Virus record (IMG/VR): IMGVR_UViG_3300028573_000031
Location: 1 to 40,093 of that record
Strand: one strand, 5' to 3'
DNA length: 40,093 nt
Source: a virus
Part shown: piece after piece, positions 7,270 to 38,444 of the stretch
How the letters are laid out: every line of letters starts with the position of its first letter
Position numbering within the stretch: position 1 is the first letter of the stretch
Translations under genes and position numbers: made by a program
Notes under the pieces: generated by a model
What the model was told of the DNA's origin: nothing
Seen by the model: only the letters and a program-made list of their open reading frames with translations
Database searches by the model: none

Positions 7270-8217
7270 ATGTCAGTATCAATAGCATCGTTGCCTCCGC
7301 AAATTCAACAGAGGTACAACGCAAAATTGCTGTCAACTCCAGAGCACAACTTGATTCACCAGTTGTTTGCTACACCAGTTGAGTTGCCAGACAATCAAGG
7401 CTTTATCGATCGTCAGTCACGTTATGACAGGCTAGACCTGTTCGAAGTGCCTCTCGATGATGGCCAAAATAACCCACCACCACAACAACTTAACCGAGTT
7501 GATGTGGACTGCCGTGTAAGGGTTTACGCCACTTACATTGTACTCACAAGACAGGTCACTATCACCAACGAAGACCCCGTGCTTAATAGTGCGGCTGCAC
7601 GACTTGGACAAAGCTTAAGAGAAACTCAGGATGCCCTCCAGAGAGATAATTTGGAAAGCTCTGCTTCCATTATCAACTGTGTCGGAGGGACTAACGGAGA
7701 TATCCCGACTGAGATGACTATCTCGGATGTGGACGACGTCTTTACTGTTCTTCAAAACAACAGTGGTGAGTATATCACAAACATTGTCGAAGCTGACTTG
7801 AAATTTGGAACAAGTCCAATCGGTGACGCCTATGGGTGCATGTTGACGACTAGAATGATCCCAGTTCTGTACAACATGACTGGTTTTATCAAGAAATTCC
7901 AGTACCCGAACATTTCTCAAACATTGAGTGTTGAGATTGGCGGAGCGAACAACGTTCGTTTCTTTGCTTCCGAGCAAGGTTCTGTCTCTCCAAATGCTTC
8001 TATGCTTGGAAATGATGTCGCTAACTGCTTCGTAGCTGCTAAAGAAGCCTACAAAGTTGTTTGGCAAGCAGGTGGTAAAGCTCGCTTTATCTACCTTCCG
8101 CCTGGATACAATAATGATCCATGTATGTTGAGACATACAGCCGGTTGCTCATTTTATCAAGGTCAGTGCATCACAAACGATCTTTGGGTTCAAAACCTCA
8201 GATCAACAGGAATATAG
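7270..8217 (+). CDS. major capsid protein (N4-gp56-like)
   Basis: 315 residues. The pattern IDRQSRYDRLDLFEVPLDDG, a conserved Tyr/Val-rich strand region (VYATYIVLTRQVTI), DPVLNSAAARLGQSLRETQD, then a domain ending in ARFIYLPPGY, fits the N4-gp56 family of HK97-fold coat proteins. It follows the scaffold and precedes virion decoration and connector candidates. AAGGGAACA is the ribosome binding site. The length is usual for the family. It should be among the most abundant virion proteins. Confidence 0.82.
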   Translation: MSVSIASLPPQIQQRYNAKLLSTPEHNLIHQLFATPVELPDNQGFIDRQSRYDRLDLFEVPLDDGQNNPPPQQLNRVDVDCRVRVYATYIVLTRQVTITNEDPVLNSAAARLGQSLRETQDALQRDNLESSASIINCVGGTNGDIPTEMTISDVDDVFTVLQNNSGEYITNIVEADLKFGTSPIGDAYGCMLTTRMIPVLYNMTGFIKKFQYPNISQTLSVEIGGANNVRFFASEQGSVSPNASMLGNDVANCFVAAKEAYKVVWQAGGKARFIYLPPGYNNDPCMLRHTAGCSFYQGQCITNDLWVQNLRSTGI

Positions 8218-8227
8218 GAGTTAGAAT

Positions 8228-9319
8228 ATGTTACCATTTTCATTTATTGGGTCTTGGTCTTACACCAACCCAGCAACTCCTGTTGCCGTTAATATTCCTA
8301 TGACTGCAAAACCCGACTGGGTTTTCGTCAAGGATGTAACCAACTGGGGTTTGGCTTCTACTGCTGCTAACCCTGTGTACGCGGAATGGTTCAGTGCTAA
8401 TATGGCACAAGGTTCTTATTTAGGTCTCGGTCAAACTAGCGTTTCTGCTGGAACTGTAAACTTATATTCAGAACAAGGAACTTCTGGAGGTTTCACTTTC
8501 ATTAACCAAGCAAGTCCTCCAACTTTTACAAAAGTTGCGATTACTGCGGTTAACGGAACCACATTTGTCGTTTCGACAGGTAACACTTCAGGTCTGAACG
8601 TCGGTGACACAGTACGTCTTATCAACGTAACTGGCGCACTGCAAATGAGTGGATCGAACCTCTATCAAATCACAGCTATTACGACAAACACAAGTATTAC
8701 GCTTGGTTATGCTGCTTCAGCTGTTACCGCAGGTTTGGTAGTCGCTAACGGAACAACTGGTTTCTACCAAAAGGTATATCCAGGTCAGTTCCTTCCTAAC
8801 ACATTGCCAGTAGCTTACATTACGCAAGCAACTCAAGCGGTTGTGTACTTCTTCAGGCAGAATCCTTACACCCCAGGGGAACTTGTTGACTTCCAAATCC
8901 CAACGCCCTACGGCATGACTCAGCTGAGCAATTTAACAGCTAAGTCGGGAAGCGGATCTCTTACATCTAATCCATCTGGTGCTGCTAGGGTTTTGAGTGT
9001 GACAAACTCAGCCACTGTTTCTTCGATCACTATCGATGTAGACACAACTGGGTTTACAGCGTTTCAATTCCCAACATCTGCTGCCTTCGCAGGTGGAGCG
9101 TCTCCAGCTGTATGTATGCCTGCTGGATCAGGCGTTGTGCCTCTTAATGGAAGCGCAACTATTCCTGCATCCCCTCCAGGAACAAACCTTGCTGATGCAT
9201 TCGACAACAGATCGCAATACATCATGAATATTGGTTTGAATGCTGTAGGAGTTGCTAATGCCAACATGGTTGTCATGGCATTCAAAGCGGATTTCGTCAA
9301 CGGAATCACTAACGCATAA
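8228..9319 (+). CDS. virion protein with E1-FCCH-like domains, likely capsid-associated
   Basis: 363 residues, rich in Ser, Thr, Gly and Val, beta-rich, without coiled coil. Residues of about 95-160 (VVSTGNTSGLNVGDTVRLINVTGALQ region) and about 190-330 (ITQATQAVVYFF, then IPTPYGMTQLS, ending PAGSGV...DAFDN) show the repeating layout that databases name ubiquitin-activating E1 FCCH-like domain in phage structural proteins. The C-terminal half is clearly related to the protein at 9726-10109. It lies 10 nt behind the coat gene with a strong AGGAG site. A decoration or minor capsid role is inferred. Confidence 0.68.
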   Translation: MLPFSFIGSWSYTNPATPVAVNIPMTAKPDWVFVKDVTNWGLASTAANPVYAEWFSANMAQGSYLGLGQTSVSAGTVNLYSEQGTSGGFTFINQASPPTFTKVAITAVNGTTFVVSTGNTSGLNVGDTVRLINVTGALQMSGSNLYQITAITTNTSITLGYAASAVTAGLVVANGTTGFYQKVYPGQFLPNTLPVAYITQATQAVVYFFRQNPYTPGELVDFQIPTPYGMTQLSNLTAKSGSGSLTSNPSGAARVLSVTNSATVSSITIDVDTTGFTAFQFPTSAAFAGGASPAVCMPAGSGVVPLNGSATIPASPPGTNLADAFDNRSQYIMNIGLNAVGVANANMVVMAFKADFVNGITNA

Positions 9320-9325
9320 AAATTA

Positions 9326-9350
9326 GGGAGGGGAAAAATCCCCTCCCTTT
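9326..9350 (+). terminator. strong hairpin after the capsid genes, partial terminator
   Basis: GGGAGGGG (9326-9333) pairs perfectly with CCCCTCCC (9340-9347) over a 6-nt loop, followed by only three T. It would end some transcripts after the capsid genes and let others continue into the connector/tail genes. Confidence 0.65.
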
Positions 9351-9366
9351 AAACAAAGGATTTAAA

Positions 9367-32487: not shown

Positions 32488-32516
32488 ATCATAATTCATC
32501 TTGCATTTATTTGCAA
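32488..32516 (-). promoter_or_regulatory. leftward promoter for the coiled-coil gene
   Basis: Minus strand: TTGCAA (32511-32516), 17-bp spacer, TATGAT (32488-32493), 27 bp before the ATG. Confidence 0.48.
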
Positions 32517-32557
32517 AGGTATTTAAAAATTCATTAAAGCCAAACAAAGGAAAAAAC

Positions 32558-32797
32558 ATGCTTACCCCAGTCGGAAAAAGATTACTTGTAAGGCCTGTAG
32601 CGCCTAAACCAGGAACCCTAATTTTAACAAATCAAAAACCCAATCAATTTGAAGTTATTGCGACCGGCGATGAAATAACCAAAGTTAAAGCAGGAGATAT
32701 GATTTACCTTGAAAAACATTATGGAGTCGAAATCGAACACGAGGGCGAAAAACTCCTCGTGATCGATGAAGTATCTATACTAGCTACGTTCGACTAA
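32558..32797 (+). CDS. phage GroES-like co-chaperonin
   Basis: 79 residues. PVGKRLLVRPVAPKPGTLILTN aligns with the GroES start, where a hydrophobic tripeptide (IVL, here LIL) in the mobile loop docks into GroEL. FEVIATGDEITKVKAGDMIYLEKHYG matches the GEVLAVG...VKVGD.V....GYG block, and LLVIDEVSILATFD matches the C-terminal strand. The roof hairpin of GroES appears missing, which explains the shorter length (GroES has 97). T4 gp31 is the known example of a phage replacing GroES to fold its capsid protein. AAAGGAAAAAAC precedes the ATG. Confidence 0.74.
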   Translation: MLTPVGKRLLVRPVAPKPGTLILTNQKPNQFEVIATGDEITKVKAGDMIYLEKHYGVEIEHEGEKLLVIDEVSILATFD

Positions 32798-35179: not shown

Positions 35180-35326
35180 ATGAATGATGACTATGATCCT
35201 ACTGAGATGACTCTAGCAGATATAATTAAGTGCATGAAAAAACTAGAAAAAGAAAATAGTGATCTTGAAACAAAGACTTTACAGTCTTCTACTGTTAGAG
35301 ATGCATATTTCGTACAAGACATATAA
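35180..35326 (+). CDS. small hypothetical protein (48 aa)
   Basis: ATG at 35180 reads 48 residues, acidic and helical (MTLADIIKCMKKLEKENSDLE). Only a weak ribosome binding site (AGGCTG). It lies between the basic protein gene and the tRNA-like element. Confidence 0.5.
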   Translation: MNDDYDPTEMTLADIIKCMKKLEKENSDLETKTLQSSTVRDAYFVQDI

Positions 35327-35335
35327 ATAAATTTT

Positions 35336-35393
35336 GGTTGCGTAGCTCAGTTGGTTAGAGCCTTGGAGCGCCGGTTCAAGTCCGGCCGCAACT
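35336..35393 (+). tRNA. tRNA-like sequence lacking the anticodon arm
   Basis: 58 nt. Acceptor GGTTGCG (35336-35342) pairs with CGCAACT (35387-35393; first pair G-U). The D arm is GCTC/GAGC with loop AGTTGGTTA. The T arm is GCCGG/CCGGC with loop TTCAAGT (TTCRA conserved). Between D and T arms there are only 8 nt, CTTGGAGC (35362-35369), where a normal tRNA has about 23, so the anticodon stem is gone. No CCA is encoded. This is either a deleted tRNA gene or a tRNA mimic; it cannot decode. The first seven of the 8 nt could be a bare anticodon loop (TGG), but that is speculative. Confidence 0.68.
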
Positions 35394-35434
35394 TTTTGAT
35401 CGCTTTCGGGGTTGCTCGTCGTGGCTGGAACCCT

Positions 35435-35443
35435 TGTTATAAT
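35435..35443 (+). promoter_or_regulatory. extended -10 promoter candidate
   Basis: TGTTATAAT is a perfect extended -10 (TGnTATAAT). No good -35 is seen. It lies 13 bp before the TTG start at 35456 and could give a secondary transcript for DUF551, TerL and the methyltransferase. Confidence 0.48.
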
Positions 35444-35455
35444 TTGGAGTAATTA

Positions 35456-35680
35456 TTGGGACGTTGTCAACATTGCAAAAAGCTAACTCACTCGGAAGAT
35501 TTGATTGTTTATTATGATGTTGCAGATCATGATAAGGTTTTCGAATTAACAAGATTGAAAGACTGGATACCTGCATTTCAATATTTCCAATTTGACAAAA
35601 ATTTAGTACCCTCTGAATATGGTAAGCTTAAGTGTGGTGATATTTACATACATTTTAGGGTGAAAAATGGAATGGATTAG
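35456..35680 (+). CDS. small hypothetical protein with CxxC motif
   Basis: 74 residues from TTG at 35456, with GGAG 7 nt upstream. RCQHCKKLTH at the start suggests one half of a zinc site. The rest is aromatic-rich (IPAFQYFQFDKN; KCGDIYIHFRVK). It overlaps the next gene by 14 nt. Function unknown. Confidence 0.58.
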   Translation: MGRCQHCKKLTHSEDLIVYYDVADHDKVFELTRLKDWIPAFQYFQFDKNLVPSEYGKLKCGDIYIHFRVKNGMD

Positions 35681-35966: not shown

Positions 35967-36075
35967 AGAATTTATATATATATATTCTATATCAATTTTT
36001 TCTTTTTTTTTACTTTGTTTAATTGTTTGTGTTATAAATTTAACTATTGATTTTATTTGCGGTAAAATAAAATGA
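35953..36075 (+). CDS. 40-aa single-span membrane peptide
   Basis: ATG at 35953 reads 40 residues to a TGA that overlaps the TerL start (ATGA). About 24 consecutive residues are hydrophobic (ISIFSFFLLCLIVCVIN), flanked by EVIKE and CGKIK. That is one membrane helix. Coupling to terL suggests it is translated. A holin-like or regulatory peptide is possible, but nothing specific supports it. Confidence 0.5.
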   Translation: MEVIKEFIYIYSISIFSFFLLCLIVCVINLTIDFICGKIK

Positions 36076-37607
36076 TTATTCAACATGATGATTACATCCC
36101 TACCCAAGAGCAGCTTAATGACAAGCTTTGGCGACTCACCCATCTTTATTACATCACAAACAAATCTGGTGAAGAGGTTCTATTCAATCTTAATTGGGCA
36201 CAAAAGGAATTATATCATAGAGAGTGGCACCAAATGCTCGTGCTTAAGGCGCGTCAACTAGGAGTGACTACATATTTCGTAATAAACTTCTTGGATGAGT
36301 GCTTTTGGTATAATAATACTGCTTCGGGTATAATAGCCCATAGAAAAGAGGATGCAGAGCAAATTTTTAAACAAAAGGTAAAATACGCATATGACAGAAT
36401 GCCCAAATGGACGAGAGCTTTCAACAGTGCCACTAACGATCGAGCTGGTGAATTGGTTTTCGCAAATGGATCTAGTTATCGAGTTAGTACAGGATTCAGG
36501 AGTGGAACGTATCAACGGCTGTTGGTTTCTGAATTTGGAAAGATATGTGCAAAGTCGCCCGATGTTGCAAAGGAAATTGTTACTGGAAGTCTTAACACTG
36601 TCTCCGCTGATCAAATTATTGCTATCGAATCCACCGCTGAGGGAAGGGAAGGGTACTTCTACGAGTTTAGCAAACAGGCTGAAGCGTTATTGTCGAAAAG
36701 CGAATCCATGCCTGATTTCAGACTGTCCCCAATGCAAATGCGATTTTTCTTCTTCCCTTGGTTCGACGAGCCAGAATATCGCGAATCAAGCGGAGAAATC
36801 ATAGTGAGTAAAGAGACAAACGAATATTTCGATCGAATCGAGCTTGAGCGTCAAAGAAAGATTGACGAAGAGCAGAGAAGATGGTATGAAATGAAGCATC
36901 GGATGCTCGGTGATGCTATGAAGCAAGAGTATCCATCGACACCAAAGGAGGCATTCGAAAGTGCTAATGAAGGTCTTTATTACGGTACTCAATTGGCTAA
37001 ACTTAGTGCTAATGGAAATGTTTGTCGGGTTCCTTACGACGACGCATTGCCGGTTCATAGCGCATGGGACATCGGCCTGGACGATTTTACTGCAATATGG
37101 TGCTTTCAAGTGGGAAGAGGCGGCCAAGTAAATATTATAAACTTTTATGAAAATCTTGATGAAGGGGCGGCACATTATTGTGATTGGCTTAATAAACAAA
37201 AGTACCGTTTTGGACGACATATCTTCCCTCATGACGCGAGAAAAAGAGACACTGGCGTTAAGACGCAGTATATTGACCACGTTATCCCGCTCCTTGACGG
37301 TCGGATCGTTATATTGGACATCAAAGAGTGTGATAAACTTGAAGGGATACAGACTGTACGATCAATGTTGTCCCGTTGCGTCTTTGATGAAGAAAAGACG
37401 ACAAAGGGGTTTAAACATTTAGAAGCGTACAAAAAAGAGTGGAATGATAGACTAGGATGTTATAAAAACACACCTCAACATGATGACGCAAGTCATGCGG
37501 CAGATGCCTTTCGTTACCTTGCGGTGGGATTGAAGGGATTGGAAAGAAAAGACAATGCAAGCTCAGAAAATGATATGAAGGCTATAAATAAATATTTTGG
37601 ATATTGA
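36072..37607 (+). CDS. terminase large subunit (ATPase/nuclease)
   Basis: 511 residues, near the length of P22 gp2. The ATPase part has a Walker A variant KARQLGVTT (59-67), an adenine-side IIAHRKEDAEQIF, and Walker B RLLVSEFGK (149-157) with Glu154. The RNase H-like nuclease has SAWDIGLDDFTA (Asp333), IFPHDARKRDTG and the C-terminal DDASHAADAFRYL. It cuts concatemers and pumps DNA through the portal. It starts in an ATGA overlap with the small membrane peptide, and the methyltransferase follows after 6 nt. Confidence 0.9.
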   Translation: MIIQHDDYIPTQEQLNDKLWRLTHLYYITNKSGEEVLFNLNWAQKELYHREWHQMLVLKARQLGVTTYFVINFLDECFWYNNTASGIIAHRKEDAEQIFKQKVKYAYDRMPKWTRAFNSATNDRAGELVFANGSSYRVSTGFRSGTYQRLLVSEFGKICAKSPDVAKEIVTGSLNTVSADQIIAIESTAEGREGYFYEFSKQAEALLSKSESMPDFRLSPMQMRFFFFPWFDEPEYRESSGEIIVSKETNEYFDRIELERQRKIDEEQRRWYEMKHRMLGDAMKQEYPSTPKEAFESANEGLYYGTQLAKLSANGNVCRVPYDDALPVHSAWDIGLDDFTAIWCFQVGRGGQVNIINFYENLDEGAAHYCDWLNKQKYRFGRHIFPHDARKRDTGVKTQYIDHVIPLLDGRIVILDIKECDKLEGIQTVRSMLSRCVFDEEKTTKGFKHLEAYKKEWNDRLGCYKNTPQHDDASHAADAFRYLAVGLKGLERKDNASSENDMKAINKYFGY

Positions 37608-37613
37608 GAACGG

Positions 37614-38444
37614 ATGTTAAATGGCTTGGATTTATTTAGCGGAATCGGTGGAATCAGTCTCGCCCTTAGAGATTACGTTAGACCCATCGCCTATTGCGAA
37701 ATCGACCCTTATTGTCAAGGAGTATTGTTGTCTAGAATGGCATGTGGGGAATTACAAACCTCTCCAATTTGGGATGACGTGCAAACACTCGGAAAAGACT
37801 CAGGGTCATTTCCTATTAATAGCATCGATATTATCTACGGTGGCTTTCCATGCCAGGATATCAGCATTGCAGGACTTGGAAAAGGCTTGGAAGGAGAGCG
37901 CAGCGGACTGTTTTTCGAGATCATTCGCTTGGCCAAAGAAATCAAGCCCAAGTTCATATTCCTTGAAAACGTCCCGGCAATCTCAACAAGAGGGGGACTT
38001 CAAGTTGTTAATGAATTTACCACGATGGGGTATGATTGTCGATGGTGTACTATATCCGCTGCGTCCGTTGGAGCGCTCCACAAAAGAGATCGTTGGTTCT
38101 TATTGGCCCACCCCGCAATCGAGAGCGCAATCAGATACGCCGAGCGAACGGAGAAGGAATACGCCTTGTCTACATTCCTCTGTACTCTTAGCAACCCCAA
38201 CCGCAAGCCAAGGATCGAAGCCGATACGAGCGCCGAGTCCGAGCAGAGTGAAGGGGAAACACGGCGAGGATTTACAGGACAGTATTGGCCGTTTGAATCC
38301 CGAAAGCATTGGCAAAAGGCTGTCAGTGGAGTTTGTAGAACTTCTGATGGGGTATCGTTCCATGTGGACAGACTTAGAGGACTCGGCAACTCAGTATGTC
38401 CTCAACAAGCGAAAAAAGCGTTCGAAATCTTAATGGGATTATAA
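37614..38444 (+). CDS. C5-cytosine DNA methyltransferase
   Basis: 276 residues. Motif I DLFSGIGG (6-13), motif IV GGFPCQDIS with catalytic Cys80, motif VI LENVP (Glu118), motif VIII-like HKRDRWF (156-162), and motif X LGNSVCPQQA near the end. The target recognition region between about 165 and 240 is short and hydrophilic. It probably methylates phage DNA to escape host restriction; no partner restriction enzyme is nearby. Nearly the whole gene is also open in the +1 frame (next entry). It follows TerL by 6 nt. Confidence 0.88.
   Translation: MLNGLDLFSGIGGISLALRDYVRPIAYCEIDPYCQGVLLSRMACGELQTSPIWDDVQTLGKDSGSFPINSIDIIYGGFPCQDISIAGLGKGLEGERSGLFFEIIRLAKEIKPKFIFLENVPAISTRGGLQVVNEFTTMGYDCRWCTISAASVGALHKRDRWFLLAHPAIESAIRYAERTEKEYALSTFLCTLSNPNRKPRIEADTSAESEQSEGETRRGFTGQYWPFESRKHWQKAVSGVCRTSDGVSFHVDRLRGLGNSVCPQQAKKAFEILMGL
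37621..38433 (+). CDS. overlapping +1-frame protein within the methyltransferase gene
   Basis: 270 residues from ATG 37621, open over almost the entire methyltransferase gene. The sequence is not random: SSYSLKT (111-117), LPRWGMIVDGVLYPL (133-147), GSYWPTP (159-165), LATPTAS (190-196), LNPE (225) and VEFVELLMGYRSMWTDLEDSATQ in two parts at 236-258. The combination SLKT ... PRWGM..G ... WPTP.A ... LNP..VE.LMG...GWTDL is one I recognise from phage proteins annotated as methyltransferase-associated. Its function is unknown. Whether it is translated here, separately or by frameshift, cannot be decided by eye. Confidence 0.5.
   Translation: MAWIYLAESVESVSPLEITLDPSPIAKSTLIVKEYCCLEWHVGNYKPLQFGMTCKHSEKTQGHFLLIASILSTVAFHARISALQDLEKAWKESAADCFSRSFAWPKKSSPSSYSLKTSRQSQQEGDFKLLMNLPRWGMIVDGVLYPLRPLERSTKEIVGSYWPTPQSRAQSDTPSERRRNTPCLHSSVLLATPTASQGSKPIRAPSPSRVKGKHGEDLQDSIGRLNPESIGKRLSVEFVELLMGYRSMWTDLEDSATQYVLNKRKKRSKS

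Follow-up and report, generated by a model that had tools for sequence, protein, structure and literature searches.

An anticodon-armless tRNA-like element beside phage packaging genes and a recurring class of candidate non-decoding tRNA mimics

The tRNA genes of phages have mostly been discussed as translation aids or as answers to tRNA-cleaving defences. In the mascRNA of MALAT1 and the tRNA-miRNA RNAs of gammaherpesviruses, tRNA-like structures have been shown experimentally to act as signals for the tRNA end-processing enzymes, in other hosts and other genes than the element described here, for which a processing role is putative. Among phage-encoded, structured RNAs, passages of PMC11143913 and PMC5320573 name the C4 antisense RNA of P1/P7 and the M3 RNA as targets of cleavage by host RNase P; the former source counts both as known RNase P substrates. 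C4 is a stem-loop antisense regulator, whereas the present element is a cloverleaf minus one arm and a putative RNase P substrate. Incomplete prokaryotic tRNA sequences also arise, according to passages of PMC9897764, by partial duplication at an integrated element or by capture of a CRISPR spacer; in the present element, by contrast, both ends are there and the centre is missing. An element of the same kind is found in Polaribacter phage Danklef (MT732458.1, 43546-43603), where it is labelled 'tRNA-OTHER'. It is likewise 58 nt long and armless, lies 1.8 kb before the terminase small subunit, and differs from our element in its acceptor, which carries G3:U70 and A73. Three tRNA passages from the paper on the Danklef phages do not discuss it, and a search of the open-licence PMC literature found no paper on anticodon-armless phage tRNAs. 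Such elements are easy to miss, since the Danklef copy bears an unspecific label and ARAGORN was silent on ours. A non-decoding class that keeps the elbow and the acceptor helix would separate non-translational uses of the tRNA shape from decoding, and would offer a small RNA that can be tested as a processing signal or decoy.

The armless element and its setting

The DNA analysed is the 40,093 bases of virus record IMGVR_UViG_3300028573_000031 (IMG/VR), hereafter the window. A 58-nt tRNA-like element occupies positions 35336-35393 of its plus strand. The 5' strand of the acceptor stem, GGTTGCG (35336-35342), leads through U8 A9 (TA, 35343-35344) into a D arm, GCTC-AGTTGGTTA-GAGC, in which G18 G19 are present (35345-35361). 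The anticodon arm is replaced by an 8-nt connector, CTTGGAGC, whose last base is C48 (35362-35369), and this is followed by the T arm GCCGG-TTCAAGT-CCGGC (35370-35386), the 3' strand of the acceptor stem, CGCAACT (35387-35393), and a T at the discriminator position (35394). All 16 pairs of the acceptor, D and T stems form, one of them as a G1-U72 wobble, and the D and T arms are joined by 8 nt as against about 23 nt in a normal tRNA. The 3' side reads TTTTTG, so that positions 73 to 75 are all T, the C74 typical of the class is missing and CCA is not encoded; position -1 is a T. A sequence-only reading of this DNA had described intact acceptor, D and T arms, a TTCAAGT T-loop and an 8-nt joiner, and had proposed Infernal scoring. 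The sequence and the Rfam tRNA family (RF00005) both bear this description out: RF00005 matches the element with 44.5 bits (gathering threshold 29; E 2.1e-6), skipping the anticodon positions. The acceptor, D and T arms and core bases that RF00005 calls for are all there, and the anticodon stem with its 7-nt loop is absent. The element thus has in common with canonical phage tRNA genes the three arms, U8, G18 G19, C48 and the T-loop, and its class shares with them an enrichment of U-1 and C74; it differs in having no anticodon arm, in being unable to decode and in receiving no ARAGORN call (zero tRNA and zero tmRNA calls in the window).

A strict structural rule demanding 7+4+5 pairs, the T-loop motif and GG in the D-loop matched once in the window and in none of 100 dinucleotide shuffles of it. 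The minimum-energy fold from RNAfold (z -2.7) retained the acceptor and T arm, but GCTC of the D stem paired there with another GAGC, inside the connector, rather than with the GAGC of the D arm. A tmRNA is ruled out, as only 8 nt separate the tRNA halves, there is no tag reading frame and ARAGORN made no such call. A one-ended remnant of integration at a tRNA gene would not fit either, both acceptor strands being present and paired.

The packaging-operon setting had been read correctly. A 48-aa ORF (35180-35326, plus strand) stops 9 nt 5' of the element, so a separate promoter would not fit in the gap between them. Downstream lies a 74-aa ORF (35456-35680, plus strand) with relatives in four loci (L009, L019, L020, L031), and the terminase large subunit gene (36072-37607; phrog_2, E 5.7e-26) starts 678 nt 3' of the element on the same strand. 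Further genes in the window encode portal, terminase, RecE-like and DnaC-like proteins. The packaging region is flanked by a GroES-like co-chaperonin gene (32501-32797) and a DNA methyltransferase gene (37614-38444). Elsewhere in the window, positions 9266-9357 match the Rfam family sraA below threshold (28.7 bits against a gathering threshold of 56) and contain a strong GC-rich hairpin.

A recurring armless form

We searched viral contigs with a pattern consisting of a D arm and a T arm whose GAGC and GGTTC were separated by 5-20 nt, and in which the acceptor was not specified. This shortened form was matched by 116 contigs, with spacing peaking at 11 (26 contigs), 12 (23) and 13 (19); the window element has a spacing of 11. 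An acceptor paired at 6 or more of its 7 positions, together with a T stem paired at 4 or more of 5, was found in 26/26 contigs at spacing 11 and 22/23 at spacing 12, and in just 6/19 at spacing 13, where permuted-looking arrays of Bacteroidota type intrude. The acceptor/T pairing filter removed 21 of the 116 viral rows and a spacing of 19-20 removed 10 more, leaving 85. Scanning bacterial and archaeal genomes yielded 66 loci, of which 46 were removed for N, pairing or spacing and 20 passed; several genome loci are identical in sequence to viral contigs (Acinetobacter, Oscillospiraceae, Dysgonomonas). Together, the 105 loci (85 viral, 20 from bacterial genomes) contain 78 distinct elements with 60 different acceptor stems, and the named phages with members are Danklef and Bacteroides phage BF1-TP2. 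The form is rare overall: 120 control loci chosen for full-length tRNA held about 500 full-length matches and no armless form with a D arm.

In the tRNA arrays that intrude into these scans (L160, L164, L165, L172, L190, L204, L206 and about 25 more Bacteroidota loci, and the viral L053, L063 and L085), the acceptor 5' strand finds its pairing partner in the acceptor 3' strand that belongs to a T arm lying upstream, as in L190. By sequence they resemble tRNA genes that have been circularly permuted, with the break in the anticodon loop; a literature search on permuted tRNA in Bacteroidetes returned no paper on such arrays, judged by title or abstract opening. Five of the control loci (L308, L325, L343, L378, L398) carry ultra-short hairpins of acceptor and T arm beside ordinary tRNAs, with 17-20 nt replacing both the D and the anticodon arms.

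This form was captured in a model, R1, made from 21 elements of spacing 11 with the window element excluded. R1 scored the window element at 77.7 bits (E 2.9e-28), the Danklef element at 71.4 and the BF1-TP2 element at 61.6, whereas the highest ordinary tRNA reached 52.2 bits, with 54 of the 120 control loci scored; the window element thus lies above every ordinary tRNA tested. Across the 16 pairs of the R1 alignment, pairing is 98.5% and the covariation score is 0.776, as compared to 0.157 in shuffles. Since the rows had been pre-filtered for pairing and the covariation may come from tRNA ancestors, this supports the structure and not a function. U8 and C48 are invariant (21/21) though not required by the selection. 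On these sequence comparisons, it is very probable that the class exists and that the window element belongs to it.

The arms are preserved where the surrounding DNA has diverged. In an Acinetobacter-type family, mean identity is 95% in the arms and 60-62% in the 60-nt flanks, against a shuffled baseline of 58%, while the connectors range from 8 to 14 nt. In a Clostridia-type family the values are 90% for arms and 66-70% for flanks (baseline 57%), and two looser groups have arm identities of 80% and 87%. Such conservation across related phages is present in these families and absent for the window's own group.

A second scan at a spacing of 21-24 nt, a choice that forces some shortening but not specifically of the loop, found 66 contigs. 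Among 51 distinct paired elements at this spacing, 34 have a stem of 4 bp or more that ends in a loop of 3-6 nt, and just two have the normal 7-nt loop; the tetraloops GCAA, GAAA and GAGA occur. Within L226-L291 (for example L255, L257, L270, L236 and L252), the anticodon stem bears a tetraloop or pentaloop, some of GNRA type. One element with a 5-nt-loop arm (L247) is identical to two armless elements (L137, L154) except for the arm, and the connector start CTTGG is the same as the arm's 5' strand in L253 and L289. An arm that is already non-decoding is therefore present in a sister of at least one armless form.

Candidate functions of the class

For the class, the best reading is a selected tRNA mimic that does not decode, and this, as a reading of sequence, appears well supported at class level. 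The proposal of such a mimic holds there on recurrence, varied but paired acceptors, core bases, arms preserved against diverged flanks and the series of shrunken arms. It does not extend in the same way to the window copy, since no armless form occurs in the 35 whole records of relatives. By sequence, the class keeps the top half of a tRNA (acceptor helix, T arm, D/T elbow and core contacts) and has lost the anticodon arm. Passages of PMC4919913 give the acceptor-T stack and the elbow as what RNase P measures in all pre-tRNAs, and the window element has this substrate geometry in its stacked acceptor-T helix (7+5 bp), G18 G19 and T-loop. For the mechanism we infer the following course. The element would be co-transcribed with a late or packaging operon, and its RNA would fold like a tRNA elbow. 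Processing enzymes would use the elbow as the reference point for measuring the acceptor-T stack and leave the anticodon unread, such that host RNase P would cut the 5' end and tRNA 3'-trimming enzymes the 3' end. The cut would part upstream from downstream mRNA and free a short stable RNA. Our reading as a whole is that the window element is a member of a recurring class of phage tRNA mimics that do not decode, keeps the parts recognised by RNase P and perhaps marks processing sites in polycistronic mRNA. We consider this reading evenly balanced between right and wrong; the punctuation by RNase P, taken as a step of its own, is more tentative. For the window copy, the absent C74, the G1-U72 wobble, the other D-stem partner chosen by RNAfold and the lack of conservation at the locus speak against this reading.

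The end positions of the class bear on this reading. U-1 occurs in 27/60 class elements (p 0.006) and C74 in 38/60 (p 1e-13), neither being required by the pattern, and C74 is still found in 28 of the 50 members without CCA. Ordinary phage tRNAs show the same two marks, with C74 stronger (59/67). These could be marks of tRNA end processing or, alternatively, inheritance from ancestral tRNAs; the window element has the U-1 and not the C74. Position was less informative. The elements are intergenic and mostly co-directional with their neighbours, with both neighbours on the same strand in 37 of the 51 families that have both as compared to 54/63 control tRNAs, and a single element of 60 (L113) shares part of its length with a predicted gene, neighbour genes having been predicted with a codon-based ORF caller. 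As ordinary phage tRNAs are placed and oriented alike, position alone decides nothing, and orientation was dropped as evidence for operon processing. An upstream terminator was likewise dropped as a class feature (4/60 armless elements, 2/95 control tRNAs).

Terminase, portal, head protease and endolysin families (PHROG) occur beside class elements and are missing among the leading families beside control tRNAs. The comparison rests on sets that were partly hand-picked, with small counts and overlapping PHROG families: 56 downstream proteins chosen from 103 references, with second genes for some loci (set A1), and 53 upstream proteins chosen from 96 (set A2). In a fairer set, made of the first gene downstream that encodes 80 aa or more and available for 55 of 60 families (A4), portal, terminase and endolysin families are still included, and the control set of 72 proteins (A3) has no families of portal, terminase or endolysin type among the best 25 listed. 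An enrichment of packaging, head and lysis genes beside class elements is therefore only suggestive.

In a wider form, many unrelated phages would keep non-decoding tRNA mimics (armless, tetraloop-capped, perhaps with an extended arm) in which only the elbow and acceptor stack are preserved, either for punctuation of late mRNAs by RNase P and 3'-end enzymes or as nuclease-proof decoys of tRNA-directed host factors. We put this forward as a conjecture that falls somewhat short of an even chance. If the elements acted as decoys, the short RNA would engage host enzymes or defence proteins that recognise a tRNA by its elbow or acceptor end, such as tRNA-directed nucleases or maturation or modification enzymes, and the missing anticodon loop would make the RNA immune to anticodon nucleases. 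In line with this, the elbow and the acceptor stack are conserved, whereas the class varies in acceptor sequence, discriminator and CCA; the association of the class with phages also fits. But no anti-defence neighbour gene recurs among the leading families and no particular target is indicated, and we regard a decoy role as unlikely.

The same variability bears on whether the elements are charged. G3:U70 with A73 is a signature of alanine tRNAs, and G-1:C73 of histidine tRNAs. In favour of carriers charged by anticodon-independent synthetases for non-ribosomal use of aminoacyl-tRNA, the first signature is found in 7/79 distinct elements, the Danklef copy reading likewise, and the second in 15/79, mostly of one family. 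In locus L095, an ORF of 424 aa that resembles class I aminoacyl-tRNA synthetases, shorter than the matched phage family of 903 positions, lies 284 nt 3' of an A73 element. This neighbour is a single case, however, and no identity set is common to the class. The 1:72 pair is G-C in 30/78 elements, the discriminator is A in 31, C in 20, G in 17 and T in 11 of 79, and CCA is encoded in just 13/79. All three features are thus free, which argues against one charging identity, and the window element itself has T73 and G1-U72. We consider an aminoacyl carrier very improbable.

The window site in related phages

If the window element had arisen by a recent single deletion, as the sequence-only reading offered as an alternative, then relatives should carry a full-length tRNA at the same site. 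We compared 40 loci with a related terminase, of which 35 have at least 1.5 kb upstream of that gene. No tRNA or tRNA-like element was found at the window site in these 35. Within 1.5 kb upstream of the terminase, ARAGORN on the relatives, Rfam on L002-L026 and R1 on all 40 loci each returned nothing. Searching 35 of the relatives' records in full gave no armless form, the top match (40.4 bits) being a full-length tRNA in L006. Blastn of the element against the relatives gave matches of 18-21 nt only, and a search of viral contigs for elements with the window's own arms, at short or full length, found none. The marker of a simple deletion is thus missing, and likewise there is no conservation at the locus. 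The shortened form, for which a search of related phages had been proposed, occurs in many unrelated phages and in none of the 35 relative records searched. The window copy may accordingly have been acquired recently, or be what is left of a class member.

A relic, that is, a tRNA or class member whose arm was deleted and which is now drifting, would explain why the locus is not conserved in relatives, and the unusual 3' side without C74 and the rarity of the form overall are consistent with it. However, none of the 16 pairs is broken, the core bases are kept, and no full-length tRNA stands at the site in relatives. The parts of the element also recur elsewhere: its connector is found exactly in four other loci (L124, L131, L139, L147), its acceptor 5' strand and D arm are letter-identical in L148, and the armless form is seen again and again with differing acceptors. 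We therefore judge a drifting relic improbable.

Other tRNA-like elements are present in the group. Six relatives carry one at a shared syntenic position that follows the portal operon (L006:9197-9276, L008:10473-10567, L010:11231-11314, L013:7034-7110, L020:11102-11206, L031:11606-11697). Their acceptor is GGCATGT or differs little from it, their T-loops depart from the standard (TGCAAGT, for example), and the length of their central arm varies widely, for totals of 76-105 nt. L018 has a post-portal tRNA-like element with another acceptor, and related sequences were read by eye in L016 and L007. In the window this place holds just a hairpin with a T-run and no tRNA-like element. The post-portal elements hint, as a second sign, that the window's phage group keeps tRNA tops with free central arms.

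Directly 3' of the window element, a 48-nt non-coding stretch (35395-35442, plus strand) recurs in two other phages. The copy in L021 (5939-5986; 92% identity) lies directly 5' of the terminase and the copy in L428 (774-819; 89%) lies before a homologue of the window gene at 7270-8217, both without the tRNA-like element. This stretch is conserved at 89-92% across three otherwise diverged phages, always amid head or packaging genes.
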